Shown here: positions 3,293-26,490 of the stretch, in pieces
How positions within the stretch are numbered: the stretch's first letter is position 1
How the letters are laid out: each line of letters opens with the position of its first letter
Source of the DNA: a virus
Reading direction: 5' to 3' (one strand)
Length of the DNA: 30,026 bases
IMG/VR virus record: IMGVR_UViG_3300027608_000107
Span: 1-30,026 of that record
Position numbers and translations under genes: made by a program
Notes under the pieces: model-generated
The model's input: the letters and a program-made list of their open reading frames with translations, nothing else
What the model was told of the DNA's origin: nothing
Databases searched by the model: none

Positions 3293-3320
3293 TTTATAGC
3301 TAAGTCTTTGCCTTTGTCAA
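3293..3320 (-). promoter_or_regulatory. near-consensus sigma70-like promoter for the replication genes
   Basis: Minus-strand TTGACA (3315-3320), a 16-base spacer and TATAAA (3293-3298) lie at the very end of the upstream methyltransferase gene and the short gap after it. Nine bases separate the -10 from the ATG at 3283, so the leader would be only about 3 bases. This is the closest consensus match I found in the window and would uncouple replication genes from the modification genes upstream. Confidence 0.65.
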
Positions 3321-4283
3321 TACGGAATCGCAAATATCAGCGGCCTTTCTTCCGTCGCCTTTCACGAACACAAGCACGTTCTGGTGTGTCTTGCACAGCT
3401 TCCGCCCAGCGCTGAATTGCCGTGTAACGCGCATGGATGCGCTGCCGACGCTCGTAACGAGGATGGCTTCATTATAAAGGGACAGCCCAGCGTCTAGGAA
3501 GGCCGCTATCGTCTCAGAAACGAAGTTCCGGTAGTTTCCCTTTCCATCGCGGAAATCGCCCACCACAAAGCACGCAAATCGGTTTTCGCGCAGACGCTTG
3601 CAGGCGCGGAAGATGATTGTGCGATACGCGATCACGAAATCTTTGTGAGGCATCGCGGACAAGTCCTCGCGGATGTCGCTGTATTGCTCTAAGTCTCCGT
3701 AGGGCGGGCAAGAGAAGATGAAATCTGCCTCGGGCGCTTTCTCCACTTCGTTCATCGAGTCGCCGCACACCCATTCCGGCATTGACTTGCCTTCGCACAG
3801 CGCCGCGCCTTGCGCTCGGTTCGCTTCGATTTGCTCGGCGCGGAGGTCGCATCCCCAATACCTCCGGCCAAGGTGCGCCGCCACAATGCCGCGCACGCTG
3901 CCGCCCGCGAACGGGTCGAGGATTTGTGCGCCTTCGCCGCTGAACCAGCGGTAGGCGAGTTCGCAGAGAACCGGGTCGAACAAAGAAACAACGCCGCCGC
4001 CTTCCTCTCCATTCTCCGGCTGCAAGTGCGGACTGGCGGCGAGCGCAGTCATCATGCAGGAGTTTTTACCAGTTGTGCAGTTCTTGCCGGTGACTTTTCG
4101 CGCCTCTGGCTTTATTCCCATCGCCGCCCACGCCCGCTTGCGCTCTTGCCAGTCGCCTTCCCGCGCATTGAGCACCGAGAACGGCGGCACGAGGAACTTT
4201 TGCGCCACGGGCGACGTGACCGGCGGGCGCATGGACTCGCCGAATAGATCGGTGCCGTAGAGGTGTTTTTCGAGGGTGCTCAT
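3300..4283 (-). CDS. DNA adenine/cytosine (amino) methyltransferase, SCPPY type
   Basis: A 327-residue AdoMet-dependent DNA methyltransferase. An N-terminal segment (VPPFSVLNAREGDWQERKR, about 32-50) precedes the catalytic part. Motif I is DPFAGGSVRG at 123-132, followed by the acidic AdoMet-ribose strand (GCDLR), and catalytic motif IV is SCPPY at 191-195. Motif I therefore comes before motif IV, the opposite order to the methyltransferase at 5348. The exocyclic-amino class is clear; N4-cytosine versus N6-adenine is not. Start at 4283 rests on the ATGA overlap with the PLP-enzyme gene. From memory, phage proteins with this N-terminal segment tend to occur beside PLP enzymes; this needs a search. 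The N-terminal segment may be a specificity or partner-binding part. Confidence 0.85.
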   Translation of the reverse strand: MSTLEKHLYGTDLFGESMRPPVTSPVAQKFLVPPFSVLNAREGDWQERKRAWAAMGIKPEARKVTGKNCTTGKNSCMMTALAASPHLQPENGEEGGGVVSLFDPVLCELAYRWFSGEGAQILDPFAGGSVRGIVAAHLGRRYWGCDLRAEQIEANRAQGAALCEGKSMPEWVCGDSMNEVEKAPEADFIFSCPPYGDLEQYSDIREDLSAMPHKDFVIAYRTIIFRACKRLRENRFACFVVGDFRDGKGNYRNFVSETIAAFLDAGLSLYNEAILVTSVGSASMRVTRQFSAGRKLCKTHQNVLVFVKGDGRKAADICDSVLTKAKT

Positions 4284-4975
4284 GCTGCGACGTTCCAGAA
4301 AAGTGCTCCGTTGCTGGCTCTGGCGACGATGTGCCGCCAAGCCTTCGCGTCGTAGTTTGAGCAGGACGGAAAGGGCGGCGGCTCGGCGGCGTCTTGCTCG
4401 TATTTCTCCGTGGCCACGATTATCTCAGCGGTGCCAGCGTCCGGCGTCTTGCCGACTTGGACGGCGAAGAATTGCGCGGACGGCCACGCCCGCTGCAATC
4501 CACGCTGCAAGGTGCCGCTGCCCGCCACGCTCCAAACTTCATCCGGCACGATTGAGAGCATCCGCGCCCGTTGTGCGATGGCTTCCACCATTTCCTCGCA
4601 CGCCAGCCCGAACGGGAGCATCCTTGCGCCTGTCTCCGCGCAGTAGCCACGTGCCCGCGATTGAACCACGGATAGATAACCGGGGCGGGCTTTAAGAACC
4701 TTCGCGCCAAGCTCCATCGCCTTTAGCGTGCGCGGATGCGTCACCATGCTGTCGGCCAGATAAAGCGTGGCCAGCTTTCCTGCCGCCTTACACGCCGCCG
4801 CCAGCGCGATCTGCGCGTAGCCTTGGCGCGGGCCAGCATAGACAAGCTCGCGCTCCGGCATGTTTTCGATGAAGGAAAGCAACGCCGCCTCTTTCGTGCC
4901 TCCGGTCAATAAGTCATCACGCACGACGGAAATGCTTTTCCCGTTCGCCGTGAATGTTTCTAGTTTTGCGCTCAT
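4280..4975 (-). CDS. PLP-dependent enzyme (fold type II, tryptophan synthase beta-like), phage type
   Basis: A 231-residue protein with features of fold type II pyridoxal-phosphate enzymes. GGTK at 25-28 would supply the Schiff-base lysine (K28), QGYAQIALA at about 51-59 replaces the substrate loop, and AGSGT at 151-155 is the expected phosphate-binding turn. The C-terminal PFPSCSNYDAKAW (201-213) is a distinctive signature. At 231 residues it is much shorter than metabolic relatives (usually 330 or more), so it is a compact variant. It is coupled on both sides by ATGA overlaps, to the 60-aa gene and to the methyltransferase. The reaction is unknown; beta-replacement, elimination or modification of a nucleobase adduct are possible. 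Confidence 0.72.
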   Translation of the reverse strand: MSAKLETFTANGKSISVVRDDLLTGGTKEAALLSFIENMPERELVYAGPRQGYAQIALAAACKAAGKLATLYLADSMVTHPRTLKAMELGAKVLKARPGYLSVVQSRARGYCAETGARMLPFGLACEEMVEAIAQRARMLSIVPDEVWSVAGSGTLQRGLQRAWPSAQFFAVQVGKTPDAGTAEIIVATEKYEQDAAEPPPFPSCSNYDAKAWRHIVARASNGALFWNVAA

Positions 4976-5154
4976 AGCGGATTGCGTCCCTTCTCTGTGA
5001 TTTCCATCACGCGCCACTTGCCCTTGCCAAACGCGGAGCGGGCTTCATCGGGCGTCGCAAATTGCTTTTGCACGTCGCGCCACGCGAGTTGTTTTTCGTC
5101 GAACCATTGCGCCTTGTAGTAGGGCGCGAATCGGCAGCTTCCTTGTGTTCTCAT
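4972..5154 (-). CDS. hypothetical protein, 60 aa
   Basis: Compact protein (MRTQGSCRFAPYYKAQWFDE, with DVQKQFATPDEARSAFGKGK later) with the look of a small beta-alpha domain of about 55 residues, similar in layout to short proteins that carry a 'query sequence then helix' fold in phages. No family recognised with confidence. It overlaps the PLP-enzyme gene by ATGA and lies just after the strong hairpin at 5166-5213, so it is the first gene of the PLP/methyltransferase unit if that hairpin terminates upstream transcription. Confidence 0.6.
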   Translation of the reverse strand: MRTQGSCRFAPYYKAQWFDEKQLAWRDVQKQFATPDEARSAFGKGKWRVMEITEKGRNPL

Positions 5155-5261: not shown

Positions 5262-5351
5262 CTACCGCATCCCCGCGCCCGTTGCAAGCGCAATCTCTCG
5301 CCTGCTCATGCGCGGGCGCGGCGGGGTGGTTTGGTTCTGGGTCGTGCTCAT
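5262..5351 (-). CDS. possible 29-aa micro-ORF
   Basis: Starts MSTTQNQTTPPRPRMSRREI and ends GAGMR. Its ATG overlaps the TGA of the methyltransferase as ATGA (5348-5351), which argues for real coupling. It is Thr/Pro-rich then basic, with no recognised domain. The gap from 5155 to 5347 contains only this frame, the 32-codon frame and the hairpin. Confidence 0.35.
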   Translation of the reverse strand: MSTTQNQTTPPRPRMSRREIALATGAGMR

Positions 5352-6304
5352 ACCGGGATAAGCTCTTGCTCTACGTGGTTCTCAACGTCAGCAAGGTTGG
5401 CAATGGCCTGTTTGAAATACGATTCTTTTAGTTCGCATCCCATTCCTTTTCGCCCGTTCAATACGGCACCAAATACTTCACTGCCAACGCCCATAAACGG
5501 CGTGAATACGACTTCTCCGGGGTTGCTCCAAAGCACGCAAGCGCGCTCGATAACGTCGAGTTGAAGCGGATGGCAGTGCCGCTCATCGTCATTCTCTTTG
5601 GCCTCCCGATGCTTCAACACCTCGTCAATGCGGATGTCGTCCCAGAAGGCGTCCGCGTAGCGCCGCCAAATCCAGTGAGAGAAGCGGTTTTTCTTTTGGT
5701 CGCCATCCATGCCCTTGAGGTGCCGGATGTCGGCAGGCATTTGCTCCTCGCCAGCGTAGCGGTGCAGTCCGGTAGGGTGAGAGACAGGCACCGCGTTTTC
5801 ACCGCTACGGCGGAAGATGAGAAGCTGGTCAGCGTTTGCCATAGAGCACCGCGATGAGTCCTCACACATTTGCCGATGAGCCAGAGATTTCATCATCGTG
5901 CGGTTGCGAACCGTTAGCGGCTCTTTCCAGATGAAATACCGATGAGTGAAACGGAATCCGTTCTTTTCGTGCAGGCGGATAACGTCGCCGGGAAAATCCG
6001 TAAGCGCGTCATTGCCTGAGTTGCCGGTCGGAATATCCATGCAATGCACGGCGCTCATCCTTCCCGGCTTCGTGAGTCGGTGGAGTTCTTGAATCACAAA
6101 CTCGTAATGCCTGTAAAACTCATCCTTAGAAATGCAGTTGGACAAATCCTGTTCGTCGCTGCTGTATTGGTAGAGTCCCGCGAATGGCGGCGAGTAAAGC
6201 GAGAGATCAACGATGCTCGCCGGGAGTTGCTTCATCACCTCCACGCAGTCGCCGTGGTAGAGTGCATATTTTTTGGTCAGTAGTTCTTTCGGTGTAGTGT
6301 TCAT
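5348..6304 (-). CDS. DNA N4-cytosine-type methyltransferase (SPPF, permuted motif order)
   Basis: A 318-residue methyltransferase. The N-terminus carries LYHGDCVEVMKQLP and the catalytic motif IV SPPF at 38-41, a form typical of N4-cytosine enzymes. The AdoMet-binding motif X/I region is at the C-terminal end: HPLQLDVIERA at 245-255 and TPFMGVGSEVFGA at 268-280. Motif IV thus precedes motif I, as in beta-class enzymes. A C-terminal GMGCEL strand supports the fold. It sits 4 bases after the SNF2-type helicase, a pairing often seen in phage genomes. There is no restriction endonuclease nearby, so it is most likely an orphan methyltransferase for protecting phage DNA or marking it. Confidence 0.88.
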   Translation of the reverse strand: MNTTPKELLTKKYALYHGDCVEVMKQLPASIVDLSLYSPPFAGLYQYSSDEQDLSNCISKDEFYRHYEFVIQELHRLTKPGRMSAVHCMDIPTGNSGNDALTDFPGDVIRLHEKNGFRFTHRYFIWKEPLTVRNRTMMKSLAHRQMCEDSSRCSMANADQLLIFRRSGENAVPVSHPTGLHRYAGEEQMPADIRHLKGMDGDQKKNRFSHWIWRRYADAFWDDIRIDEVLKHREAKENDDERHCHPLQLDVIERACVLWSNPGEVVFTPFMGVGSEVFGAVLNGRKGMGCELKESYFKQAIANLADVENHVEQELIPV

Positions 6305-6308
6305 GTTA

Positions 6309-7733
6309 TTAAATCCAGCTTGGCAGTGTCGGGGTTATGGTGTGTGTTTTTCTTTCAGATTTGATTGCGTCATTCATGTGCTTCACAAGCTCCTCAAACA
6401 TCTTCTCAGCTTGCGCGGCCTTGCGGCTCATATTGTCGCGCACGCGCTGTTCGCCTTCGCTGGCGATGATGTCCACGGTTACGGGGTTTTTCTGTCCAAA
6501 GCGCCAGCATCGGCGGATTGACTGATAGTATTGCTCGTAAGAGTGCGAGGCGAACGTGACAACGTGATTGCAGAATTGCCAGTTGAGTCCCCAAGCGCCG
6601 ATCTTCGGCTTGATGACGAGCACGCGCTTTTCCTGATTCAAGAATGAATCGTAAGCGGCCTCTTTTTCGTCGTCACTCATCGGCCCCTTCACTTGCACGC
6701 TGTTGGGAATCATGGCTTCCAGCGCCTCGCCCTCGGCGTTCGTGTGGCACCATGCCACGGCGGGACTGTCGTGAGAGACAAGCTGTGCAACCATTTCGCA
6801 CCGCTCTTTCAGCGTGCGCTTGCGCTCATCTCTTTCCTCGGCAAGCCCGAAGGCAGGCATCGTGAAAAGCATCCCGTCCGGTGGCGTTGTCGGCTTCACT
6901 ATATGCTCGCGCTCATTCAGCGCCGGGAGTTCGTAGCCATCATCGGCAAACCCGATGTCAGACGGCTTGCGGCACGCGCGCGCCCATGAGCAAACCCATT
7001 TCCAGAAATGGTCATGCGCGTGGCCCTTTAATCGCCAGCCGTTAATTGCCTGTGAGACGCGGAACGAGATTTTCCCGAAATGGTTCGCCTGCTTTTCGAG
7101 ATTGTTGATCTTTTTCTCGTATTGGTCGGTCGTCTTTTGATCCATCTGCTTAAAGAAGCGCGAAAGCATGTCCGAGTTGTTCAGGTCGCCTAGCGCCTCG
7201 GATGATGTTCCAAGCTCCGTGAAGTCATTCGGTGCCGCTGTTGCCGTCCAGAGGGAGCGGTAAGGCAGCTTGCACATAAAGCGCGTAACGGCCTTCTGTG
7301 TCGCTCCTGTGGCGTGTTTGATGATGCTGCTTTCATCGCACGCGACGGCCACGAAATCAGAAGCGTTGAAAAGGTGGAGCTTTTCGTAATTGGAAATCGT
7401 GATTTTCCCGGCTGGCTTTCCGTCGCGAGAGCGTCCCGCAGCTATGCCAAAGCGCGCCGCCTCTTTGAGCGTCTGCCCGCCGACTGCCAGCGGCGTGAGA
7501 ATAAGCACGTTGCCGTTGGTTTTTTCCACGATGTTTTGGCACCACACAAGCTGCATGAGCGTCTTACCGAGTCCGCAGTCCGCGAAGATTGCGGAGCGTC
7601 CTTTGCGGCAGGCCCATTTGATAAGTGCGCGCTGGAATGGGAAAAGGAAATCCGGCATGAATGTAGGTTCAAATCCAAACTCGCCTCCGAGTTGAGATTT
7701 CGCGTCTAGGAATTGTTCGTAGGTCTGATTCAT
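6309..7733 (-). CDS. SNF2-type DEAD/DEAH-box helicase
   Basis: A 474-residue superfamily 2 ATPase. Motif I is ADCGLGKT (51-58), motif II is DESS at about 133-136, motif III is TATAAPND at about 163-170, and the second RecA-like domain ends with the motif VI-like segment QSIRRCWRFGQ, characteristic of SNF2/phage DEAD helicases. It would translocate on or remodel double-stranded DNA. A GGAG sequence 8 bases before the ATG at 7733 is one of the few Shine-Dalgarno-like sites in this region. The methyltransferase begins 4 bases downstream, so the two are co-expressed; a joint role in replication or modification of phage DNA is plausible. Confidence 0.88.
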   Translation of the reverse strand: MNQTYEQFLDAKSQLGGEFGFEPTFMPDFLFPFQRALIKWACRKGRSAIFADCGLGKTLMQLVWCQNIVEKTNGNVLILTPLAVGGQTLKEAARFGIAAGRSRDGKPAGKITISNYEKLHLFNASDFVAVACDESSIIKHATGATQKAVTRFMCKLPYRSLWTATAAPNDFTELGTSSEALGDLNNSDMLSRFFKQMDQKTTDQYEKKINNLEKQANHFGKISFRVSQAINGWRLKGHAHDHFWKWVCSWARACRKPSDIGFADDGYELPALNEREHIVKPTTPPDGMLFTMPAFGLAEERDERKRTLKERCEMVAQLVSHDSPAVAWCHTNAEGEALEAMIPNSVQVKGPMSDDEKEAAYDSFLNQEKRVLVIKPKIGAWGLNWQFCNHVVTFASHSYEQYYQSIRRCWRFGQKNPVTVDIIASEGEQRVRDNMSRKAAQAEKMFEELVKHMNDAIKSERKTHTITPTLPSWI

Positions 7734-7803: not shown

Positions 7804-8015
7804 GCCTTCACCGGGTATTTCGTCCAGTCCACCGCAAAGCAGGCTGTGGCGAGCATCTTGGCCAGCGGCTCCACCGTGTGCGGGCGGTAGCGGCCAATGA
7901 CGTGCGGCCAGTCCCACACGCGCGCTTCGATGAGTCGGCCTGTGTTGTCGAGGCTCCAGCCTAGGCCGCGCGATTCGAGGTCTGCGATGATGTCGTCAAC
8001 GGTTGGTGTGTTCAT
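7800..8015 (-). CDS. hypothetical protein, 71 aa
   Basis: Starts MNTPTVDDIIADLESRGLGW and ends CFAVDWTKYPVKA. The central segment (GRLIEARVWDWPHVIGRYRP) is aromatic and basic. No recognised family. The start at 8015 is set by the ATGA overlap with the 95-aa gene; an upstream in-frame ATG at 8084 would lie deep inside that gene. Confidence 0.55.
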   Translation of the reverse strand: MNTPTVDDIIADLESRGLGWSLDNTGRLIEARVWDWPHVIGRYRPHTVEPLAKMLATACFAVDWTKYPVKA

Positions 8016-8299
8016 GGCTTTGCTTTGCGTTTGGGTTCGTCGGCTGGCCACGGAATGCCGTTGCGCTCGGCGAGCAGCTTGCACGCGCTGAGTTCGGTCT
8101 CGTCGTCGGCTACTTTGTCACGACGCATTAGCGAGGCCATTGAATACTCATGGGCCAACTCGGTGAACGCCCGCCGCGTGCCGTCCTTCATCGTGATGCG
8201 CTCGAAAAAAGCCATCCATGCGTAGCGATGCCCCGCGCCTGCCAGCCGATGCGTTGCCACGCCGTTCTCGCGCTTGAATGTAGCGAGGGCCGTGCTCAT
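8012..8299 (-). CDS. hypothetical protein, 95 aa
   Basis: A mixed alpha/beta small protein (MSTALATFKRENGVATHRLA, later TMKDGTRRAFTELAHEYSMA) that ends with a basic tail (EPKRKAKP). No family identified. ATGA overlaps at both ends place it in the same coupled run as its neighbours. Confidence 0.55.
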   Translation of the reverse strand: MSTALATFKRENGVATHRLAGAGHRYAWMAFFERITMKDGTRRAFTELAHEYSMASLMRRDKVADDETELSACKLLAERNGIPWPADEPKRKAKP

Positions 8300-8562
8300 T
8301 GCATCAGGATGCTCTCGGCGTGATTCAGCCGCTCCATCGCAGCGGCGAGGTCTGCCACCAGCCGCGCATTGACGGCGCGCAGGTCGCTGTTGACGCTATC
8401 TGTCTCGGCCACGTCCTGCTCGGCTGCGCGCAGGCTTTGGCGCGCGTTGTCCCGCTCGGCTGCGACGCTGCGAAGCTCGGCCATTGCCAGCGCGAGGTCA
8501 AATGTTTGTTCGGCGAATAGGACGCGCAGATTTGATAATAGTTCGTCAATTTTTGTGCTCAT
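8296..8562 (-). CDS. coiled-coil protein, 88 aa
   Basis: Almost entirely helical: MSTKIDELLSNLRVLFAEQT then a heptad-like Ala/Leu/Glu/Arg pattern (ELRSVAAERDNARQSLRAAE) to the end. It resembles the 115-aa coiled-coil protein at 563-910 in composition. Function unknown. The start at 8562 coincides with an ATGA overlap with a 21-codon frame; a longer in-frame start at 8613 is possible. Confidence 0.55.
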   Translation of the reverse strand: MSTKIDELLSNLRVLFAEQTFDLALAMAELRSVAAERDNARQSLRAAEQDVAETDSVNSDLRAVNARLVADLAAAMERLNHAESILMQ

Positions 8563-14426: not shown

Positions 14427-16904
14427 TTAGGCTAAGAGTCCGGCGTTCCGTAGTGCTTTGACTACTTGTGCGATCGTGTAGCCGTCAAACGTGTCGTCCG
14501 TTTTGAGATTTGTCCCCCCGCCGGGGCTTGCAACGGTTGCGCTGGCAACTGCCGTTGTCGGCTGAACGATTGGCGTGGCGTTCCAGAAGCTGAGTTTTTG
14601 TGAAGTCGTCGCGCCAATCTTAGTGCCGGTCGTCGTGTTGAAAGCGATGTTCTGCGCATCGCCTAAAGTGATTCCGCCGTTAGCTGTGAGAAGCCCCGTC
14701 AGCGTGCTCGCGCCGGTCACGGCGAGGGTGCCGCCCGCCACGATATTTAAGCAGCCAAGTGAACCAAGTGCATTCGCTGCGCTTGTGCCGATTTGCAGGA
14801 TGCCCGCCGATTGCCGGGAAAAAGTCAAGTCTTTCGTGCCGCTAGCCTCACCGGACGACGCGGCCCATTGCCACACAAATCCAGACAACATGTTACCATT
14901 GCTGGTGCCGATCGCGAACTGAAAGGAACTTTTGGCCGAATTAGCGCGGACGTATATGGCCCCAAAGCAATTCGTGTTTCCGCTGCCATCCACCTCAAAA
15001 TAGCTGACAGGAATTCCGCCACCGCTTGTGCCATCAACCTTGCAGTCAATGAATTTCGGTGAAGCGGTGTTGAGGTTGATGCCGAGCGCGGTGCCCGTCG
15101 TTGACCAAGAGGTTGAGGCTGTTGCGCCGCTCTCGTTGATGTAGATGTGAGGGAAGTTCGTAGTCCCGGTGCCCGCTGCGTAAATCGCGCCGGTCGTCGA
15201 AATAGCGGACGTGGACGCGCCGGGGGCGAGGCTGAATGCGTTTGCCGCCGTGAACGTATTCGCCGCGCCGACATAAGCCGGGTCGCCGTCGCTCACTGCG
15301 GTGCTGAGTTGCGCCATCGTGAACGAGCCAAGCACGGTGGCGTTGCCGGTATTCGTGATTGCGCCGGAGAGGGCCGGGATCGTCGTGACGGTTGCCGCAT
15401 TCCCCGTGAATGTCGCCGCGTCAACAGTGCCGAGCGTGCTGCCGTTTGTCGTGACTCGCAGTGTGCCGGTGGCTGGCGCGGTGAGATATGTCAGATGCCC
15501 CCCGGTGCCGTCCCGCACGCGCAGGCCGGAGCCAAGGTCTGTGCAAATATCCACATAACCGCCAGCCGCTCCAGCGTTAATTACTGGGGAATCAGACGCC
15601 CCTCCGCCGATACGAATCCACGGATGGCCAGCCGTCACTTGCGCCGTGCTGTTGTATGGGCTTATGTCGAACCCTATTGTGGCAATGCTTGGATTCGTCA
15701 CAACCACAGAGTTGTTAGCGTACGTGTTATTGTTTACCGTCAGTGTCCCGCTAAACGTCCCCGTCGTCCCCGCAACCGTGCTCGGCGTGGTCGCGCCCAC
15801 GGTGCCGTTGAATGCGCCTGCCAAGCCCGTCGCGGAGAGCAGCCTCGTCGCGCTGTTGAACGTCAGCCCTGCGTTGCTCATCGCCGCCAAGCTGCCCGTC
15901 GCAGCCGTCGCGAATAGTGGGAAGCATGTCGTGTCAGTCGCCTCGTTTGCCACGGTCACGGTTGCTGCGAGCGTAGCGTTGCCCGCCGTGAGGCTGGCGG
16001 CGGTGCCGCTGGCGTTCGTTAGGACGATTGCAGATGGCGTGTCGAGGGCGGGCGTCGTGAAGCTCGGCGAGGTAGTCATCGCCACGCTGCCGGTGCCGCT
16101 GATTGTCAGTAGTTCCGGCGTGCCCGTCCCGGCTGTTGTGCGCCCCAAAACGCGAGCCGTTGGCATGTGCGCCAGTTTCGCGAGCGTTATCGTGTCGTTG
16201 TCAATCGTCCACGTCGCGCCGCTACTGCTGACTGTTATATCGCCCTTGTCGCCGTCGCTCACGGAGCTGACGGTGCCCCACGATGTAGCCGTGCCGTTCG
16301 TGGTGAGGTATTTGCCAGAGTTGCCGGTCTGGGATGGCAATTCATTCGGGACATTGGTAAGCTGCGAGCCATCCACTGCCGGGAGCCGTGCCGAGCTATC
16401 CAGCCGCACGAAGCCGAGCGCGGTGTTGATCGCGACTAGCAGCGCAGCGGCGACGCCAGTGCCGAGGATGGAGGGCGTCGGCACCGCTGTATCGGGGTCA
16501 ATCACGCTCCGGTAAATGACAATCGGCGCGGAGAAAATCGTGTTCGTGTAAGCTCCGCGCGTGCGGACGACGCCGACGTTTAGCGTCAACTGATTCGCCG
16601 AGGTCGCCGCGAATAGCGCAACCATGCCCACGGTATTGATCGCCATCGTGCCCGTCGCTGGCGAGGCACTGGAAAGCTCGATGTAGCACACGGGCGCATT
16701 CACGCCGTCGCCGATGCCGATGTGCAGCACGTCGCCAGCAACAAACGAATCCGTGATCACTCCCGCCGTGCGCGTGAAGGTCTGCACTGACACGGCCTGC
16801 CCCTCGTCTGCCATGGAAATGTCCGGGACGCTGCCAATGCCGCCCGTTGTGCTCGCAAAAAGGCCAGCGAGCGGCTTCGTTTCGTTGATGAGAAGTGTCA
16901 GCAT
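14427..16904 (-). CDS. tail fibre / receptor-binding protein, 825 aa
   Basis: Largely Thr/Ser/Ala/Gly-rich beta-repeat sequence: after an N-terminal domain (MLTLLINETKPLAGLFASTT...) come many short beta-strand repeats (TGTFSGTLTVNNNTY, TVGATTPSTVAGT), typical of phage side-fibre shafts. The C-terminus (TGTKIGATTSQKLSFWNATP, then DGYTIAQVVKALRNAGLLA) is a conserved fibre end seen in many environmental phages and may be the trimerisation/receptor tip. It would bind the host surface. A promoter-like sequence ends 9 bases before its ATG; no Shine-Dalgarno sequence is present. The gene ends TAACCCAC. Confidence 0.75.
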   Translation of the reverse strand: MLTLLINETKPLAGLFASTTGGIGSVPDISMADEGQAVSVQTFTRTAGVITDSFVAGDVLHIGIGDGVNAPVCYIELSSASPATGTMAINTVGMVALFAATSANQLTLNVGVVRTRGAYTNTIFSAPIVIYRSVIDPDTAVPTPSILGTGVAAALLVAINTALGFVRLDSSARLPAVDGSQLTNVPNELPSQTGNSGKYLTTNGTATSWGTVSSVSDGDKGDITVSSSGATWTIDNDTITLAKLAHMPTARVLGRTTAGTGTPELLTISGTGSVAMTTSPSFTTPALDTPSAIVLTNASGTAASLTAGNATLAATVTVANEATDTTCFPLFATAATGSLAAMSNAGLTFNSATRLLSATGLAGAFNGTVGATTPSTVAGTTGTFSGTLTVNNNTYANNSVVVTNPSIATIGFDISPYNSTAQVTAGHPWIRIGGGASDSPVINAGAAGGYVDICTDLGSGLRVRDGTGGHLTYLTAPATGTLRVTTNGSTLGTVDAATFTGNAATVTTIPALSGAITNTGNATVLGSFTMAQLSTAVSDGDPAYVGAANTFTAANAFSLAPGASTSAISTTGAIYAAGTGTTNFPHIYINESGATASTSWSTTGTALGINLNTASPKFIDCKVDGTSGGGIPVSYFEVDGSGNTNCFGAIYVRANSAKSSFQFAIGTSNGNMLSGFVWQWAASSGEASGTKDLTFSRQSAGILQIGTSAANALGSLGCLNIVAGGTLAVTGASTLTGLLTANGGITLGDAQNIAFNTTTGTKIGATTSQKLSFWNATPIVQPTTAVASATVASPGGGTNLKTDDTFDGYTIAQVVKALRNAGLLA

Positions 16905-16913
16905 TGCGGTGGT

Positions 16914-16942
16914 CTTTTAGGGTTTGCGGGTGCGGTTGTCAA
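16914..16942 (-). promoter_or_regulatory. candidate promoter for the fibre and lysis genes
   Basis: Minus-strand TTGACA (16937-16942), 17-base spacer, TAAAAG (16914-16919), then 9 bases to the fibre ATG at 16904. The -35 overlaps the stop of the upstream gene. Geometry is the same as at 3293-3320 (9 bases), giving a leader of about 3 bases. Confidence 0.55.
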
Positions 16943-17220
16943 ATTGGTTTTCGTTCGGGCCATTTTCCTTTGGGGCAGTCCTCAGTAATCAGCGCGGCCT
17001 TCGCTTGCAAAAAGCATCCGCAGACGGCGCACCGCGCGCCTAGCGCGCCATCCGGCATAAGGAAGTGCGTGCATTCTGTGCAAGCTGCCATCCGCCCCTT
17101 GCGAACATCCAGCGAAGCAATCAGCTTGCCTGTCGCGATGACGCCAATCACCGCCTTCGTTGCCGCCGCCGCAACTCGCCCCGCCGCTGTCACCGCGTTC
17201 TTTACGCATCCGCAACTCAT
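16939..17220 (-). CDS. Cys-rich phage protein ending CPxGKW (putative zinc site), 93 aa
   Basis: Starts MSCGCVKNAVTAAGRVAAAA and, after a hydrophobic Ala/Val segment (about 18-32), contains CTECTHF then CAVCGC and the closing CPKGKW. The 'C..C...C..CGC.l..K...CP.GKW' pattern recurs in small phage proteins encoded near tail/fibre genes; its function is unknown to me, but a zinc site is likely. Start at 17220 is chosen because it overlaps the preceding TGA (ATGA at 17217-17220); the upstream ATGs at 17235 and 17226 are inside the previous gene. Confidence 0.65.
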   Translation of the reverse strand: MSCGCVKNAVTAAGRVAAAATKAVIGVIATGKLIASLDVRKGRMAACTECTHFLMPDGALGARCAVCGCFLQAKAALITEDCPKGKWPERKPI

Positions 17221-17765
17221 GGGCATGAAGCGCAAGTTATTTCAATGAGCGTGCCGCCGCTGTATGCGCTTTGGTTTCCGCTGCTGCTTAAATAGTAAAT
17301 TGTGGACGACACGTAATCATCGCCGGGCGCAATATCTTCGCCGTTGACGCAGATGGAGTATCCGCCAGTATTTGTCACTCGAATCTCTGTTGTCTCAGTG
17401 CCCGCGTATGTTCCGCAAGAACTGTATCTGTTATACCAAAAACGAAACTGGCGGACGGTAGGAGTGTCGAACGTATAATTGCCGGTGATTATTTCTGGCG
17501 GATATGGGCTGCTGGCGCAATTCGGGTGTGCGTCGCTGTTAAGCGTAAGTGTGCCGCCGACTCCGACTTGAGATAAGCGACCGTAATATACCGCACTCAG
17601 CGCGTCCTCACGTCCATACAAGTCGAGGTCGGTTCCATCCGTCCAATCCAGCGTGGCGGTGATTGTGAACGTGCATGTTTGCCCGCAATCCACAAGCAGC
17701 GTGGACGCCGCGCAGTTTGTTAGCAGCGTGGATGCGGCGCAGTTTGTTAGCAGTTTCGCAGCCAT
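17217..17765 (-). CDS. Cys-rich secreted-type beta-sandwich (YfaP/DUF2135-like), 182 aa
   Basis: The core, about 30-130, resembles the YfaP/DUF2135 beta-sandwich: TATLDWTDGTDLDLYG, then YYGRLSQVGVGGTLTLNSDA and PPEIITGNYTF, followed by strands ending TEIRVTNTGG. The family is usually associated with cell-surface proteins. Nine or more cysteines suggest disulphides or metal sites. The N-terminus holds two copies of LLTNCAAST and a degenerate third. It sits between distal tail and fibre genes, so it may be a tail-tip decoration or adhesin. No signal peptide is evident, so cysteines may stay reduced until virions are released. Confidence 0.5.
   Translation of the reverse strand: MAAKLLTNCAASTLLTNCAASTLLVDCGQTCTFTITATLDWTDGTDLDLYGREDALSAVYYGRLSQVGVGGTLTLNSDAHPNCASSPYPPEIITGNYTFDTPTVRQFRFWYNRYSSCGTYAGTETTEIRVTNTGGYSICVNGEDIAPGDDYVSSTIYYLSSSGNQSAYSGGTLIEITCASCP
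17695..17748 (-). repeat. 27-bp tandem repeat encoding LLTNCAAST
   Basis: Units 17695-17721 and 17722-17748 are identical at 25 of 27 positions and lie head to tail in the 5' end of the Cys-rich gene. Unit length is a multiple of three, so copy number can change without loss of frame. A third partial unit (LLVDCG region) follows in the protein direction. Confidence 0.75.
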
Positions 17766-17768
17766 TGC

Positions 17769-18767
17769 TTAGGGGCATGTATCTGGCACGCTGGCGGTCG
17801 TGGTGATCAAATCCACCCATTCGGGAGAGCTTGCTTCATCATCCATCACCCATACCTTCTTATATTGCCCCTGCAACTTCCCGCCATAAAGCCGTAAACC
17901 CACAAGCACGTCAATCTGCACATGCTCAAACGCAAGAGTCTCGGCGGGCGCGATTGTTATTGCGCCGAGGGAATTGATCGTCACTTCACGAAGAAACGCC
18001 TTCAGGTTCCCGTCGTCATTTACGAACCGGACAAAGCCCGATTTGTTCAACTTCACTGAGTCGTAAGTCGGCGCGAGATTTGCCGCTCCTGTGTTCTTGC
18101 CCTTTCCCGTCTCAGTTAAATTCCAATAGTCTGCTTGCGCGGTGTTTTGCGTTCCCGGCGACGGAGGCATTAGGTAGGGATTTGATGCCGTTCCCGGCAA
18201 GTCGTCAATCGGCCCCCATCGGCTTTGCGCGACGATTGGAATGTTCCCGGTGCCGAGCGTGATAGTGGCAAGCTGGTAGTATCGCGTTGCCGTCAGCGTG
18301 TTATTCGTCGGCACTGTCGCCGCCGCTTCGATGGTGCGACTTGTGATCGTGCTCACGATGTCGCCATTTGCCAACACGCGACGATCCCAAGTAATCGCAG
18401 CGTAAATCTTATCGTTATTAGCAACCGACAGCGTGAACATCGGGCTGTTATTCACCTCGAAATCATCCGGCAATTCACCGAAAAGAGTGCCGTTGTAAAT
18501 CTTCACCGTGCTTGCCCCGGCTGCGACAATCTGAAACTCGCGCTGCGATTGCACCTGCGACGACGCGGGCACCTTTAGCCGCGTGAGGTCAACCACCCAT
18601 CCCGTATTGCTCACAAGAATCCTGCCGCTGCCCCACTCTGTTGACGGGAGCTTCACCTCGCCAGCGTGCCACAAGTTGAGATGCCCCACCACGTTGAACA
18701 TCCATTTTTTGTCGAGCACTCCGCCCTCAAAGGCGTTCTCAGGGTTGGCTAGTTTGACGGGTTCCAT
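17769..18767 (-). CDS. virion structural protein, probably tail tip or fibre-proximal, 332 aa
   Basis: Starts MEPVKLANPENAFEGG. The first half has a beta-rich segment (LNLWHAGEVKLPSTEWGSGR), the centre a Thr/Asn-rich repeat region (TITSRTIEAAATVPTNNTLT), and the C-terminal half (KKVWVMDDEASSPEWVDLIT) another beta region. No family recognised. It lies between the tail cluster and the fibre. The ATG at 18767 follows the previous TAA by one base; an in-frame ATG at 18788 would overlap that gene by 20 bases and is less likely. Confidence 0.55.
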   Translation of the reverse strand: MEPVKLANPENAFEGGVLDKKWMFNVVGHLNLWHAGEVKLPSTEWGSGRILVSNTGWVVDLTRLKVPASSQVQSQREFQIVAAGASTVKIYNGTLFGELPDDFEVNNSPMFTLSVANNDKIYAAITWDRRVLANGDIVSTITSRTIEAAATVPTNNTLTATRYYQLATITLGTGNIPIVAQSRWGPIDDLPGTASNPYLMPPSPGTQNTAQADYWNLTETGKGKNTGAANLAPTYDSVKLNKSGFVRFVNDDGNLKAFLREVTINSLGAITIAPAETLAFEHVQIDVLVGLRLYGGKLQGQYKKVWVMDDEASSPEWVDLITTTASVPDTCP

Positions 18768-18768
18768 A

Positions 18769-19431
18769 TTAGGCGGAAAGCTCGGCAATCGTCGGCGTGT
18801 TCACGTAGAGCGTTTTGCGCTCGATGATGCTGCCTTTGTAGATGCTGATTTCGGAATCCTTGGAAACGAACGTGCCCGTGTTTGGCGGGACTTGGTTTGT
18901 CATTAACAAAAAGCCAAAGAGTGAAGTGATTTTAGGCGCGCGAAGTGGTTCCGGCCAGTAGGATAGAAAGTATTCGTAGAGGTAGTAGCCTGTGCATACT
19001 AGCGGCCATTCTGCTACCTCCGGCGCGGGCGGTGGCTCCGTCCAGTCATAGCTCGCCGATGTGCTGTAAAACTGGAACGAATGAACAACGGAAGTCCCTT
19101 CCTGCCGAGTGATTGGCAGACTCGCATACACGCGTTTGAATTTCAGCCACCCCTTGCACGCGGTGTATTCCGGCTGCTCCTCATGCACAAGGTATGCCGT
19201 GCCGAGCGCGGTCGTCACGTATTGCATGTTTTCAACTGGCGAGACGAAGCCCGGCGAGTAGTAGCGCGCGTTTTGGAACGGCGTGAAGTTTGCGGCCAAC
19301 TGGTAGCAGTCAATATGCCACTCGAAGCTCTGCGTGTCGCCCCGGTCTTGAAACGGGCGCACGTAGCGGCCCGGCCCGTCAAATGTGACGGATGAGAGCG
19401 TGCCCACCATTACTCTGTTTGGAGTGCTCAT
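18769..19431 (-). CDS. distal tail protein candidate, 220 aa
   Basis: Beta-rich with many aromatics (RYVRPFQDRGDTQSFEWHID, later FLLMTNQVPPNTGTFVSKD). Position directly after the tape measure is where distal tail or tail-tip proteins are encoded in siphophages, and this is the main reason for the call; I recognise no domain. The start overlaps the tape-measure TGA as ATGA. Confidence 0.45.
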   Translation of the reverse strand: MSTPNRVMVGTLSSVTFDGPGRYVRPFQDRGDTQSFEWHIDCYQLAANFTPFQNARYYSPGFVSPVENMQYVTTALGTAYLVHEEQPEYTACKGWLKFKRVYASLPITRQEGTSVVHSFQFYSTSASYDWTEPPPAPEVAEWPLVCTGYYLYEYFLSYWPEPLRAPKITSLFGFLLMTNQVPPNTGTFVSKDSEISIYKGSIIERKTLYVNTPTIAELSA

Positions 19432-21056
19432 TTGGATTTGATTTGAGTGACGATTAGCGTTTGAGCCTTGAACTCGTTGACCTTTTTATCAGCGGGCGGC
19501 GCGGGAGGAATTGCGCGCTTTATAGCGTCGTCAATCGCCTTGCGCGTTGCTTCACTTCCTTTTTCGCCGGATTTTTTGTAGCTTGCACCACCGGGGAGAG
19601 CATCAAGCGGCGGAAGCCCGTTGGATTTTCTGATTCGATTCTCAGCATCCAGCGCGGCCTTGTCCCTCGCCTCAGATTCCTTTCGGTTTTTGTCATTTTG
19701 TGCCGCCGCGCGCATAGCAGCTTCTTTCTTTCTTCGCTCTTTGTCCTCGGCTGCTTTTTCTTTTGGCGTTTTCAATAAATCTGCCGCGCGTGCCTCCAAC
19801 TCGGCAATCGCCTGCTGCTTTCTTAGTTCGTCCGCAACGTCGTTCCTTCGCTCATGAATGGCCTGCGCGATTTTCAACTCGAAATCCAATCGCGTCTTTG
19901 TGAGGTCTGCAATGAGTTTTGTGTTTCCGATTTGAGCCGCCATTCCTGCGGTCGCGTTATTGGCCGCGCGCTGCGTCATTAGAATCTGATGCTCGATGTT
20001 GTTGTAAGCCATCGTTCGCTCATGCGACTGCGCGCGAAGTTGAAGCGTGGCGATGGAATTGACGCCGTTTTGCTTTTCGGAAAGCGCGATTTGATCGGCT
20101 AGCACATTCGTTTCTGCCAGCAAGATTCTAAGCTGACTCTCTAGGGAAACGTCCGTTTTTTGATGTTGAAGCAAAAGCTCTTTTTGGTTCGCGGCGACGT
20201 TAATGATGCTTTCCGATGATGCCTTTTTCTTCTCTTCAATTTTCCCTTTTGGCTCATGGAATCGGTTATCCCATTTCTTCTTCCCTTCCTCGGAGTATTC
20301 CCCAGTTCCAGAGACTGCTGACGAGACTTCGCCGATGAGATTTGTCGCGCCAGACATAAGGCCTTGCCATTTTCCTTTAACCCACCTTCCGGCTTCTTTG
20401 GCCGCTTTCGCGTTTTCTGCCGACACCGCGCTTACCCCCATCCTTTCTCGGATAGCACCCCCACCGCCTGAGACCGTTTCCTTTACGGCTCTGGCATTAT
20501 CGCCGAAAACCTTGTTGAGTTGCGCGACGGATTGCGCCGCCTTTCCAGCGCGGTCTGCGATTTCCAGAAATGCTTGGTCGGCTTTTCCGTTGTTGATTGT
20601 TTCAATCGAAACGCCGATTTCCTGCAAGGCATCCGACGCCTCTGGGATGCCGCCCCTTGCCGCGTCAAGTGCCTGCGTGACACTGTTAATCGCGGAAGTA
20701 AATTCGCCCTTTGAAAGCGTGCCCTCGGTTGCCCTTTGTAGCTGCTGAAATGATTCCGCGCTCACGTCCGCGTGCCGCGCCGCGTCGTTTATCTCCACCC
20801 CCATTTCTGCCGCCGCCTGCCCAAACTGCGCGACCTTGCGAACCGCCAGCGCGCCGCCGATGAGCTTTAGGGAACCGGCTAAGAATCCCGCTGACTTGGC
20901 AGTGTTCGCGGTTGCCTGAGACGTTTTCTGCATCTCCTGATTAAGCTCGGCCCCTTGCTTTTGCACGGCGATCATGCTGCTCGTCATCGTCGCAATGTCC
21001 TTCTTCCATTGCTCCAAGCTGATACCCGCCTGCGCTGTGAAATCGTTCTTGGCCAT
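19428..21056 (-). CDS. tail tape measure protein, short, 542 aa
   Basis: Helical throughout, with heptad-like Ala/Gln/Lys-rich stretches (ISLEQWKKDIATMTSSMIAV, ELNQEMQKTSQATANTAKSA), a hydrophobic Gly/Ala segment at about 55-70 and long charged coils in the second half (EARAADLLKTPKEKAAEDKE). Tape measures set tail length and this one, at 542 residues, implies a short siphovirus-like or podovirus-like tail tube if the usual scale of about 1.5 angstrom per residue holds. It follows the chaperone gene by one base (TAA C ATG). Composition is more A+T-rich than the capsid genes. Confidence 0.75.
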   Translation of the reverse strand: MAKNDFTAQAGISLEQWKKDIATMTSSMIAVQKQGAELNQEMQKTSQATANTAKSAGFLAGSLKLIGGALAVRKVAQFGQAAAEMGVEINDAARHADVSAESFQQLQRATEGTLSKGEFTSAINSVTQALDAARGGIPEASDALQEIGVSIETINNGKADQAFLEIADRAGKAAQSVAQLNKVFGDNARAVKETVSGGGGAIRERMGVSAVSAENAKAAKEAGRWVKGKWQGLMSGATNLIGEVSSAVSGTGEYSEEGKKKWDNRFHEPKGKIEEKKKASSESIINVAANQKELLLQHQKTDVSLESQLRILLAETNVLADQIALSEKQNGVNSIATLQLRAQSHERTMAYNNIEHQILMTQRAANNATAGMAAQIGNTKLIADLTKTRLDFELKIAQAIHERRNDVADELRKQQAIAELEARAADLLKTPKEKAAEDKERRKKEAAMRAAAQNDKNRKESEARDKAALDAENRIRKSNGLPPLDALPGGASYKKSGEKGSEATRKAIDDAIKRAIPPAPPADKKVNEFKAQTLIVTQIKSK

Positions 21057-21057
21057 G

Positions 21058-21798
21058 TTAGCTCACTTTCCGCATCGGCACAATCCACGGCGCGTCTTGC
21101 TGGCAAGCTGCCGGTATTGCGAGGTTGATCTTCTGAATCGGTTCACTGCACAGCTTATACCCCTCCGCACACTTCGCGTCAACAAATGCGTCCATTTCGG
21201 CATCGAAGTCTGCCACGATGGAAAGCTCGAAGTGTTCAATCTCAGACAGAAACTTGGAAATGAGCGGCGATGAGCGGCGATTCTGCATGGAGCATCCGCG
21301 CGCGTCGTCCGCCGCTTTGATGAGCTGGTAGAGAACTCGCAGCGGAGTGTCTAGGACGCGCTCTAGGTGCCACCCTGCGCCGGGATAGGCCGTGTTCAGC
21401 GAGCAATACAGGCCAGCCGTGGAGCCGTAGAACGACACGCCTTCGCGCCCCGGCCCCGCGTCGAGAAATGCGCGGTCGAGATACTCGTCAATTCCATCGC
21501 GTGCTTCGTCCACGTCGAGGTCGAGGATGGCCGCTAGAAACGCCTTGCGCCGCTCATCGTCGCCAAACGCGAAGTCTTTGGTCACATACCAAATGAAGTC
21601 AGGAATGGCCGCAATCGGGCAATCCCCTCCGCAAACGAACGGGTTGCCCATTGCGCGCAGCCATTCGAGTCGGCGCGGTGTCAGCGGCTCCACTTGCACG
21701 CCCGCGATTAGCTCGGGCAAGCCAAGCATCGCAACGGCGCGGTCTTTCCGCTCGCTGTCTAGCGCGTCCGCATGTTCATCGAGTGTGGCGTCCGACAC
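21058..21798 (-). CDS. tail assembly chaperone candidate, 246 aa
   Basis: The segment PLTPRRLEWLRAMGNPFVCGG (written here as PLTPRRLEWLRAMG, then NPFVCGG) at about 38-58 resembles the 'LT..r...L..i.sPfl' core of tail chaperones, and it lies immediately before the tape measure, where chaperones sit. At 246 residues it is longer than most gpG-type proteins, and I found no slippery sequence for a gpG/gpGT frameshift, so the extra length may replace the T domain. It would hold the tape measure while the tube assembles. The protein ends with a Cys-rich tail (KLCSEPIQKINLAIPAACQQ). Confidence 0.5.
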   Translation of the reverse strand: MSDATLDEHADALDSERKDRAVAMLGLPELIAGVQVEPLTPRRLEWLRAMGNPFVCGGDCPIAAIPDFIWYVTKDFAFGDDERRKAFLAAILDLDVDEARDGIDEYLDRAFLDAGPGREGVSFYGSTAGLYCSLNTAYPGAGWHLERVLDTPLRVLYQLIKAADDARGCSMQNRRSSPLISKFLSEIEHFELSIVADFDAEMDAFVDAKCAEGYKLCSEPIQKINLAIPAACQQDAPWIVPMRKVS

Positions 21799-21803
21799 AT
21801 GCC

Positions 21804-22202
21804 TTACAAGTTGGAGGTCGAGACGTTGCCTGCGCCGCCAGTGGCTTGCTCGGCTTCGATGGACGTTGTGCGAATCTTCGTTTCGGTCGTCTTGGCAATC
21901 GTCGCTTTCAAGACGACAAACGTGACGCTGCTCGCCTCGTTTTCAACGGTGCGCGTGAAGGTCGCTCCAAGCGTCGGCGGAAGCGTGCCGCTGCTGGCAA
22001 GCTGCCACTCGGCCTTGTATTGGTAGAGGCCTTTCTGATGCAACGCCTGATTCGGGTTGCCGTATTGGTCTTTGTTGTGGTCACTGGTAATCTCAGGAGT
22101 GATTTCCTCCGTGTTGACGTTGTAGGTGACAGACTCGGAAGTCGTGACGGGCGCGACGCCGTAACCGGGTGCGAGGACAAGAACGCGATTTGGTGATGGC
22201 AT
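21804..22202 (-). CDS. major tail tube protein candidate, 132 aa
   Basis: Beta-rich: MPSPNRVLVLAPGYGVAPVT then TYNVNTEEITPEITSDHNKD, and Thr-rich strands to the end. Position before the chaperone/tape-measure pair, small size and the G-free leader at 22203-22214 (seen also at capsid genes, so suited to high expression) fit a tail tube protein, but no motif proves it. Confidence 0.45.
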   Translation of the reverse strand: MPSPNRVLVLAPGYGVAPVTTSESVTYNVNTEEITPEITSDHNKDQYGNPNQALHQKGLYQYKAEWQLASSGTLPPTLGATFTRTVENEASSVTFVVLKATIAKTTETKIRTTSIEAEQATGGAGNVSTSNL

Positions 22203-22211
22203 AATGGTGGG

Positions 22212-22712
22212 TTAGTTGAGGATGGTTAGTGCTGCGGGATTTATGACGAGAATAAAAGTGATGGCAAGCGTCGTGTTGTCGAGGTTTTCCGTGTCCTGCT
22301 CTGAGTTGTCGCTTTCAGCCGGTTTGACTTGTGTGACGAGGCACGGAAGCGCCGCGCTGCTGACTGCAAGCTGATCGTTCTGGTATTGGTTCAGGTAGTA
22401 TTCGCTCAACCGTTGCGCGACTTTGCCGACAAGCGTGTTGTGCGCGCCGGTTGTTTCCTCGCTTGTCCTGTTGGTCGTCACGACAAACTCCGCGCGGCAT
22501 TCATAGGCGGAATAGACGAAAAACGGCTCAACGCCAATGGTGAGCTTCTGCTCTTGGAACTGTGCGCCCACCATTACTGAGCACGAAATGCGCGGGCTTT
22601 CGTTCGTGTCGCTTTGCCGGGAACCGTAGATGTTCGGGCAAACAGATTCCAGCGCGCCGATAAGCACGGCTTCGGCGTTTTCTTCAAGTTGGAGGATTTC
22701 GGAAAGTTCCAT
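22212..22712 (-). CDS. tail completion / head-tail joining protein candidate, 166 aa
   Basis: N-terminal helix (MELSEILQLEENAEAVLIGA) followed by alternating beta and short helical segments (SAYECRAEFVVTTNRTSEET, KVAQRLSEYYLNQYQND). Size and position (between the connector genes and the tail tube) match gpU-type tail terminators, which stop tail polymerisation and join it to the head. An AGGAG 5 bases before the ATG is one of the few clear Shine-Dalgarno sequences in the late region. Ends TAACCCAC. Confidence 0.45.
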   Translation of the reverse strand: MELSEILQLEENAEAVLIGALESVCPNIYGSRQSDTNESPRISCSVMVGAQFQEQKLTIGVEPFFVYSAYECRAEFVVTTNRTSEETTGAHNTLVGKVAQRLSEYYLNQYQNDQLAVSSAALPCLVTQVKPAESDNSEQDTENLDNTTLAITFILVINPAALTILN

Positions 22713-22713
22713 G

Positions 22714-23310
22714 TTAGCTCCTCGCGATTGCAGCGACGGCGCGCTTCATCTTGCGCTCGCACGCACGGTTGAATACCGGGAACTGCGCCGCCATGATGGG
22801 CGTCAGGATGCCTTGCCCGGTAAATGGCTTGTATTTGCGCTCTGGCGCGTCCAAGAACGGAACGCTGATGCTCGCGGTAAGCTTCGTTTCGCCGCCGTGC
22901 CATTGCCCGCGCCCTTGCGGGATGTCAGGCTCATCGTGGTTGCGCGTGGTTGCCGAGAGGACTGCCGCCGATGCGGTCACATTCACGCCGAGCGAATAGC
23001 CCACCTGCACCCATTGCAGTTGGAACAGGAAACGTGCGGGCGCGCGGTCTGCGAGGAATTGCGCCTTTGTAACGCCCTGCCCGCCTCCCCTTGCCCTCCA
23101 CTTGGCATATTGGCTGTTGGGCTTGCCTGTTTGATTCTCGCGGATTGTAGCAAGGTCGCGCACGGGAGTCGCAGCCTTGGCTTTGTTGAGCGAAGGACGG
23201 AGGAAGTAATTGCTGATTTCCGGCTTGAATATGCGCGCGGGGATAGCCGCAAGCTCGCGCTGCTTGCGACGAATCCCGCTCATGTCCATTTTGAAGCCGG
23301 AGTTTCTCAT
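22714..23310 (-). CDS. minor tail / connector protein candidate, 198 aa
   Basis: Starts MRNSGFKMDMSGIRRKQREL and is basic in its first 100 residues (ARIFKPEISNYFLRPSLNKA, YAKWRARGGGQGVTKAQFL). It ends MKRAVAAIARS. The position matches gpZ or HK97 gp10-type proteins that complete the head-tail interface. I place the start at 23310 because of the ATGA overlap with the preceding gene; an ATG at 23562 in the same frame lies far inside it. Confidence 0.45.
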   Translation of the reverse strand: MRNSGFKMDMSGIRRKQRELAAIPARIFKPEISNYFLRPSLNKAKAATPVRDLATIRENQTGKPNSQYAKWRARGGGQGVTKAQFLADRAPARFLFQLQWVQVGYSLGVNVTASAAVLSATTRNHDEPDIPQGRGQWHGGETKLTASISVPFLDAPERKYKPFTGQGILTPIMAAQFPVFNRACERKMKRAVAAIARS

Positions 23311-23651
23311 TGCTTGAGGTTGCAAATCAGCCGCACGATTGAGTCGTCTTTGTCGGGCTGGAAGTTTGCGACTTGGAATGCCAGCGAAGTCCGCCCCTCG
23401 CCAAAGGTGGATGCGTAGGGCGTGGCAAATTCGATTGTGTCCCTGAGCTTGATTCCCGCCGTTGCGCGGTCGCTTTCGAGTATCTGGAATGAGAACGTCA
23501 CCTTGGCGTCGTAAGTGTTGGGGTTGATCGTCTTGAATAAATCCAACGGCGGGGCGATGCACGCAATGGTTGCGCCGTTGAACGTGATGGAATCGGGGAA
23601 GATTGCCAGCAACGCCGTATTCAGCGCGGCCATTGAATCAGCCCAACTCAT
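23307..23651 (-). CDS. head-tail joining protein candidate (gpFII position), 114 aa
   Basis: Starts MSWADSMAALNTALLAIFPD and is a small beta-rich protein (ITFNGATIACIAPPLDLFKT, KVTFSFQILESDRATAGIKL) ending LICNLKQ. Small beta-barrel head-tail joining proteins of this size occupy this position in lambda-like phages. Begins 3 bases after the decoration-like gene ends, ATGA to the next. Confidence 0.45.
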   Translation of the reverse strand: MSWADSMAALNTALLAIFPDSITFNGATIACIAPPLDLFKTINPNTYDAKVTFSFQILESDRATAGIKLRDTIEFATPYASTFGEGRTSLAFQVANFQPDKDDSIVRLICNLKQ

Positions 23652-23654
23652 ACG

Positions 23655-24074: not shown

Positions 24075-24094
24075 TTTAGTAAGTAGGAAAAGGA

Positions 24095-24130
24095 AAGACG
24101 CCGCGCCGCAATGAAACAGCGCGGCGTCTT
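24095..24130 (-). terminator. Rho-independent-type terminator after the capsid/cement genes
   Basis: Arms 24095-24106 and 24119-24130 form a perfect 12-bp stem (AAGACGCCGCGC and its complement), loop 12 bases. On the minus strand the stem is followed by a pyrimidine tail (TCCTTTTCC). It lies in the 74-base gap after the cement gene. A partial terminator here would raise capsid and cement over the connector and tail genes. Confidence 0.7.
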
Positions 24131-24148
24131 AGGTTGATTGTGCGTGGG

Positions 24149-24553: not shown

Positions 24554-24579
24554 GATGGTGTGTTAGTTAGTGGTTGAGG

Positions 24580-25521: not shown

Positions 25522-25533
25522 TGTGTAGGGTAG

Positions 25534-26487: not shown

Positions 26488-26490
26488 GGA

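Follow-up and report, generated by a model that had tools for sequence, protein, structure and literature searches.

The window analysed here, a 30,026-base IMG/VR virus record that is probably a fragment, carries a compact minus-strand gene set that we read, with a probability of roughly 0.6, as a two-enzyme DNA hypermodification unit of tailed phages, in which a PLP enzyme acts on an amino-acid-type group linked to a base (Table 1). On the sequence comparisons presented below, the best reading is that a hypermodification PLP enzyme has been re-paired with a SAM-dependent DNA transferase; we infer that the PLP enzyme has a DNA substrate, and likewise the identity of the modified base and of the group it bears. 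New nucleic-acid chemistry can be found among the hypermodifications of phage DNA, which also explain restriction escape and whose best-known complex examples start from hydroxymethyl-pyrimidines. A one- or two-gene unit, with the PLP enzyme in some cases nested in a methyltransferase-fold enzyme, would imply that modification can begin on an unmodified base, without enzymes of the nucleotide pool. Such PLP/methyltransferase units are present in hundreds of viral contigs, and cultured phages carrying them exist.

Table 1. Features of the unit and of the adjoining methyltransferase gene in the window (positions of the window; residue numbers are those of each protein).
Feature	Position	Strand	Basis or detail
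Small protein, 60 aa	4972..5154 (stop end 4972)	-	Open reading frame; no assigned function
Overlap ATGA, stop of 60-aa gene / start of PLP gene	4972..4975	-	
Fold-type-II PLP enzyme, 231 aa	4280..4975 (ATG 4975, stop 4280)	-	Profiles, model, tree
Residues of the PLP enzyme			K28 internal-aldimine lysine; GSG phosphate loop 152-154; Y208-x-x-K211; FW-N-V 226-229
Overlap ATGA, stop of PLP gene / start of methyltransferase gene	4280..4283	-	
DNA amino-methyltransferase-fold enzyme, 327 aa	3300..4283 (ATG 4283, stop 3300)	-	Profiles
Residues of the methyltransferase			ParB-junction segment 27-65; motif I DPFAGGSVRG 123-132; motif III GDS; motif IV CPPY 192-195
Separate beta-class N6/N4 DNA methyltransferase, 318 aa	5348..6304	-	Outside the conserved unit

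Fold and active site of the PLP enzyme

The sequence-only reading had described a three-gene set joined by ATGA at both junctions, and this is borne out by the sequence, with all three genes on the minus strand, as is the presence of the motifs GGTK (containing K28), AGSGT (151-155), DPFAGGSVRG, and SCPPY, to which RDD (19-21) can be added. The AlphaFold2 model of the PLP protein, made from an input of 68 sequences (the window's own and relatives from the fetched loci), has a pLDDT of 95.7 and a pTM of 0.91. Its best matches among solved folds are the ACC-deaminase homologue 1j0a and the D-cysteine desulfhydrase 4d9f (Z 23.2), and the match spans all or nearly all of the 231 residues, against chains of ∼320 residues, at ∼17% identity. 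The protein matches phrog_7093 at E 6e-41 and PALP (PF00291) at E 1e-5, the latter below the Pfam cut-off, which the fused homologue L013 passes; a search of the PDB with the window's protein as a single sequence returned no match.

The lysine proposed earlier as the PLP-binding residue, K28, is conserved in 97 of 98 PLP relatives, a count in which this residue lay outside the patterns of the viral scan but inside those of the smaller genome scan. Through the enzyme of Mycobacterium phage Vincenzo it aligns with K54 of 1j0a, the PLP lysine within the ACC-deaminase signature RDD..GG.K, and the equivalent position is a lysine in all 28 enzymes compared (20 cellular and 8 other phage enzymes). 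With this conservation, the alignment to the PLP lysine of fold-type-II enzymes, and the high-confidence predicted fold, the earlier assignment holds: the window protein is, as judged from sequence and model, a fold-type-II PLP enzyme with K28 at the position of the Schiff-base lysine. The relatives in viral contigs were found with an alignment query, using patterns from the YDAKAW and VVRDD regions, which inflates the apparent conservation of those residues; gene neighborhood was never a search criterion. The single-sequence search of viral contigs with the window's PLP protein, which used poorly conserved peptides, found no relatives.

The GSG loop and Y208/K211 are also conserved, including in stand-alone PLP genes, and this bears on whether the domain is catalytic at all. 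A PLP domain devoid of catalysis that contributes structure or DNA binding to the methyltransferase would agree with its insertion into a surface seam of that enzyme (see below) and with its short length relative to catalytic relatives (231 vs. ∼325 aa), but retention of K28 together with these residues even where the gene stands alone, and the finding that the copies lacking K28 are decayed ones with no methyltransferase, make such a role very unlikely.

The likeness to ACC deaminase and D-cysteine desulfhydrase (1j0a, 4d9f) comprises the fold (Z 23), RDD..GGxK, the GSG loop, and a Y-x-G/A-K motif; the window enzyme, however, is ∼100 residues shorter and ends in FWxV where those enzymes have HTGG. 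In the alignments, the substrate-carboxylate loop of ACC deaminase and D-Cys desulfhydrase (SNH/SNQ) is replaced by G-x-A-Q in the window family, and the PLP enzyme is therefore not simply one of these two. None of the NCBIfam functional models for these enzymes (among them TIGR01275) scored above its curated cut-off, and the only match was to NF006094 (18 bits vs. 331).

Coupling to the CPPY methyltransferase family

The partner gene product matches N6_N4_Mtase (PF01555; E 5e-8, 33.7 bits vs. a cut-off of 26.7) and phrog_12517 (E 2e-93). Its earlier description as an amino-methyltransferase with SCPPY stands for the fold, motif I, and the profile match, but not for the standard (D/N/S)PP(Y/F/W) catalytic motif: known amino-methyltransferases have D, N, or S before PPY, whereas motif IV here is CPPY, and Cys192 is present in all 127 family members compared, with or without a PLP enzyme. 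Relative to the beta class, the motifs of the family are circularly permuted, and the structure 2zie aligns in two swapped pieces. At most PLP loci the CPPY methyltransferase has a ParB domain at its N-terminus, fused to it or encoded by a separate overlapping gene, and the window record is without one. The family resembles the ParB-fused DNA amino-methyltransferases (PF02195 + PF01555; phrog_498, phrog_12517) in SAM motif I and the ParB fusion, its methyltransferase half falling within that broad group, and differs from them in the permuted motif order, the Cys of motif IV, and the PLP partner or insert, with the window copy further differing in having no ParB. At several loci where ParB and methyltransferase are split, the two genes share a start/stop overlap, ATGGCTAA; programmed frameshifting between them was considered and rejected, as the split resembles ordinary gene fission.

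The association was counted over 64 PLP loci flanked on each side by 2 kb of sequence or more. At 59 of these the PLP gene occurs with one methyltransferase family (DPFAGGSVRG, [ST]CPPY), being adjacent to it in 54 cases and lying inside it in five. The conserved co-occurrence that the sequence-only reading named as a check is thus found, up to complete fusion, and the association is well beyond chance. The five exceptions include three Rhodobacter chromosomal remnants (L109, L110, and L111, near 8000-8520) that have neither the K28 region nor an adjoining methyltransferase, which suggests that they decayed after loss of the partner. Another is L025 (7977-10703), where the PLP gene has no CPPY methyltransferase and a different, SPPY methyltransferase is located ∼0.6 kb downstream, a possible partner swap.

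In the Erythrobacter phages ZS04 and R6L and in contigs L013, L028, and L035/L036, the methyltransferase is interrupted after motif II (ANRAQ) and before motif III (W..GDS) by the whole PLP domain. The same site is occupied in Pseudanabaena phage Pam4 by a PLP domain that has only 24% identity with the window's, and the PLP tree resolves these as two separate nesting events. The insertion point coincides with the circular-permutation seam of the methyltransferase. A predicted model of the fused protein has a pTM of 0.54 with low inter-domain confidence, and the domain orientation it shows is unreliable. In ZS04, a PAPS-reductase-like gene (L001, 1-939) lies 1.4 kb upstream of the fused ParB-methyltransferase-PLP gene.

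Conversely, among 80 sampled CPPY methyltransferases, at least 16 have a PLP gene within ∼3 kb (a lower bound, given that some contigs are cut), and 64 (∼80%, some of them truncated by contig ends) have none nearby, so that the methyltransferase evidently works without the PLP enzyme. Presence of PLP requires ∼16 changes on the methyltransferase tree, compared with ∼29 when labels are shuffled. The active-site residues of the methyltransferase, Cys192 included, are identical with and without PLP, and among the residues separating PLP-linked from PLP-free methyltransferases there was no active-site signal; at the level of sequence, this identity fits plain methylation as well as it would any other transfer. 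Because of the ∼16 changes on the tree, the 16 of 80 copies with PLP, and an active site that is the same either way, the PLP enzyme is an accessory, gained or lost repeatedly, to the CPPY methyltransferase, with which it works. In the methyltransferase tree, the window's copy is surrounded by ParB-less, PLP-free CPPY enzymes (L118-L132, L197), and it is a rare PLP-bearing member there.

The unit is often near terminase and portal genes, and this location, together with the 16 gains or losses of PLP, could be taken to mean that the two genes have come together by chance in a phage cargo region located upstream of terminase. Adjacency or nesting in 59 of 64 loci, and the nesting of two divergent PLP lineages at one methyltransferase site, leave this explanation with a negligible probability, and the conserved fusions already contradict it.

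Kinship with thymidine-hypermodification enzymes

A maximum-likelihood tree of the window PLP family, phage hypermodification PLP enzymes, and 20 cellular fold-type-II enzymes places the window family in one clade with the PLP enzymes of ViI, Ackermannviridae, and Montesquieu (UFBoot 100, 20/20 members), apart from the cellular relatives, and this phage clade is sister to the ACC-deaminase/D-Cys-desulfhydrase enzymes (97). Because its PLP enzyme falls in one clade with those of thymidine-hypermodified phages, a role of the unit in DNA hypermodification is likely. The C-terminal motif FW[NIL]V occurs in 63 of 68 window-family and all eight hypermodification-type enzymes, as compared with one of 24 genome-search enzymes (probably L222, which itself has the phage-family signature). 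In a profile comparison, the score to phage hypermodification-type PLP enzymes is 86, vs. 26-49 for cellular groups; when the intermediates Vincenzo and Pam4 are left out, the ViI-type profile scores 49 and ties with one cellular group (49). The proposed link to ViI-type enzymes thus rests on the tree, the motifs, and these two intermediates. The window enzyme shares with the PLP enzymes of thymidine-hypermodified phages (ViI Vi01_182, Montesquieu MONT_41) the clade, the K28 position, YxxK, and the FWxV end, and differs in being shorter (231 vs. 300-424 aa).

The PLP protein of Vincenzo, which adjoins a CPPY ParB-methyltransferase, matches 342 phage records, among them Salmonella phage ViI (Vi01_182) and Glutamicibacter phage Montesquieu. 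The thymidine-pathway PLP enzymes are said, in work from 2022 attributed to Lee and colleagues, to decarboxylate amino acids already on the base. ViI DNA contains 5-(2-aminoethoxy)methyl-dU (5-NeOmdU) (PMC6449724), and a PLP enzyme is among the 5-hmdU-transformation genes in all Ackermannviridae (PMC6336734). In Montesquieu, the PLP gene (MONT_41) overlaps an alpha-glutamyl/putrescinyl thymine pyrophosphorylase gene and is ∼4.5 kb from a thymidylate synthase/pyrimidine hydroxymethylase gene; within one PLP clade, then, the enzyme has the thymidine pathway as its partner in Montesquieu and the CPPY methyltransferase in Vincenzo.

The two gene contexts are mirror images. Thymidylate synthase is absent from all 26 records with a window-family PLP enzyme and present in 6/6 thymidine-type records, and the amino-acid:DNA transferase (aGPT-PPlase) is likewise absent from the 26 and present in the 3/3 thymidine-type controls tested. 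A CPPY methyltransferase is found in 24 of the 26 in the stretch read, and in 0/6 thymidine-type phage records. Thymidine-type phages therefore have the thymidylate synthase/hydroxymethylase and the transferase with no CPPY methyltransferase, and window-family phages the reverse. The 26 include fragmentary records, that of the window among them, so absence from any one of them proves little, and it is the contrast over the set that constitutes evidence. The sequence-only reading had drawn on pathways that build amino-acid-derived additions on phage thymidines; a hypermodification role for the PLP-methyltransferase unit is supported by the clade and the coupling, but the thymidine route is not, with neither enzyme in any of the 26 records.

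This grouping also bears on whether the PLP enzyme is a metabolic one that provides or removes a small molecule in the vicinity of the methyltransferase (e.g., by disposing of homocysteine- or cysteine-type products, or by releasing ammonia or sulfide), in which case the DNA product would be simple methylation. Such a role would be in keeping with the nearest solved folds and with the annotation of relatives as threonine dehydratase or carboxylate deaminase. It is, however, quite improbable given the almost exclusive partnering with one methyltransferase family and the two nestings within it, the position of the window enzyme with hypermodification PLP enzymes instead of cellular deaminases, and the lack of a SAH-processing gene among the recurrent neighbor clusters inspected.

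Proposed chemistry and genomic setting

In the proposed hypermodification mechanism, the CPPY enzyme would flip a base of the phage DNA and transfer to it a group derived from S-adenosylmethionine. The PLP enzyme would then act on the base-linked amino-acid-type group, most plausibly by decarboxylation or a related reaction at the alpha carbon, and host nucleases would be blocked by the resulting base, which would be bulky and probably carry an amine. PLP enzymes do not act on N-methyl groups; a plausible one-transferase route to a PLP substrate would be aminocarboxypropyl transfer, with decarboxylation following. In this tentative version, which we regard as possible but doubtful, the CPPY enzyme is not a methylase, and it would transfer the 3-amino-3-carboxypropyl group of SAM to the exocyclic amine of A or C, leaving the PLP enzyme to decarboxylate it to a 3-aminopropyl base. 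TYW2 and acp3U enzymes are known to transfer the SAM aminocarboxypropyl group to RNA; to our knowledge, chemistry of the proposed kind is known nowhere in DNA. If true, it would amount to a self-sufficient DNA hypermodification pathway that needs only SAM and PLP and is often contained in one polypeptide. The unit is small enough for expression in E. coli with a mass-spectrometry readout.

Alternatively, the CPPY enzyme may be an ordinary DNA amino-methyltransferase (m4C or m6A), with the PLP enzyme independently adding a group derived from a free amino acid (e.g., alanyl via PLP-aminoacrylate) to the same or another base, so that targeting is all that the two have in common. Fold-type-II PLP enzymes of the beta-substituted-alanine synthase group do alkylate free nucleobases (lupinic acid, willardiine), and both the unchanging methyltransferase active site and the occurrence of ParB, methyltransferase, and PLP as either separate or fused genes are compatible with this arrangement. 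Nonetheless, G-x-A-Q stands in place of the SNH loop with which the ACC-deaminase homologue binds the substrate carboxylate, and the closest pathway-linked PLP relatives reportedly act once the amino acid is on the base; independent addition is accordingly unlikely.

The preferred reading, of a transferase followed by a PLP enzyme, has a parallel in the CmoX/CmoY carboxymethylcytosine system of phage S-B43, where a DNA 'methyltransferase' installs a handle that a second enzyme elaborates (PMC12783734). The likeness lies in this methyltransferase-then-second-enzyme logic and in the ParB proteins nearby, and the S-B43 system differs in relying on carboxy-SAM, a C5-cytosine methyltransferase, and an ATP-dependent ligase; neither PLP nor pyridoxal is mentioned in that paper (PMC12783734). 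The fused gene of R6L is annotated as a CcrM-like methylase in its genome paper, with no mention of a PLP domain found in the part of the paper available. Our literature search, which took in only a minority of subscription papers, returned no account of a DNA methyltransferase with a PLP enzyme as its partner or insert, nor of a hypermodification PLP enzyme that operates independently of the 5-hmdU route; base chemistry for a phage carrying the PLP/CPPY unit was likewise not found in the literature. The component families are already known, and the pairing of a PLP enzyme with a DNA methyltransferase, as read from sequence, appears to be new as far as we have found.

The recurrent neighbor clusters inspected around the unit comprise terminase, portal, replication, and DUF6362 genes, or opposite-strand ORFs with no Pfam match, and no recurrent extra enzyme (kinase, glycosyltransferase, or CmoA) was found among them. 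Homologues of the 60-aa protein, which has the signature AWRD...RVMEIT..GR.PL, adjoin the PLP/methyltransferase unit elsewhere (L018:8650-8829, L059:6636-6827, and L008:2388-2540, all on the minus strand; L128:2819-2959; and also L054), and the recurring copies are often convergent to it. Of ten large late genes farther along the window (14427-29288, minus strand), two match a PHROG at E 1e-4, one encoding a major head protein and the other a member of an unknown family; the remaining eight match none, and this phage is therefore poorly represented in databases. Replication genes (Phg_2220_C, DnaB) are also near the unit in the window. The separate beta-class methyltransferase gene directly follows a SNF2/Helicase_C-type helicase gene (5348-7733 for the two, minus strand), and these constitute a second DNA-modification pair adjoining the unit.
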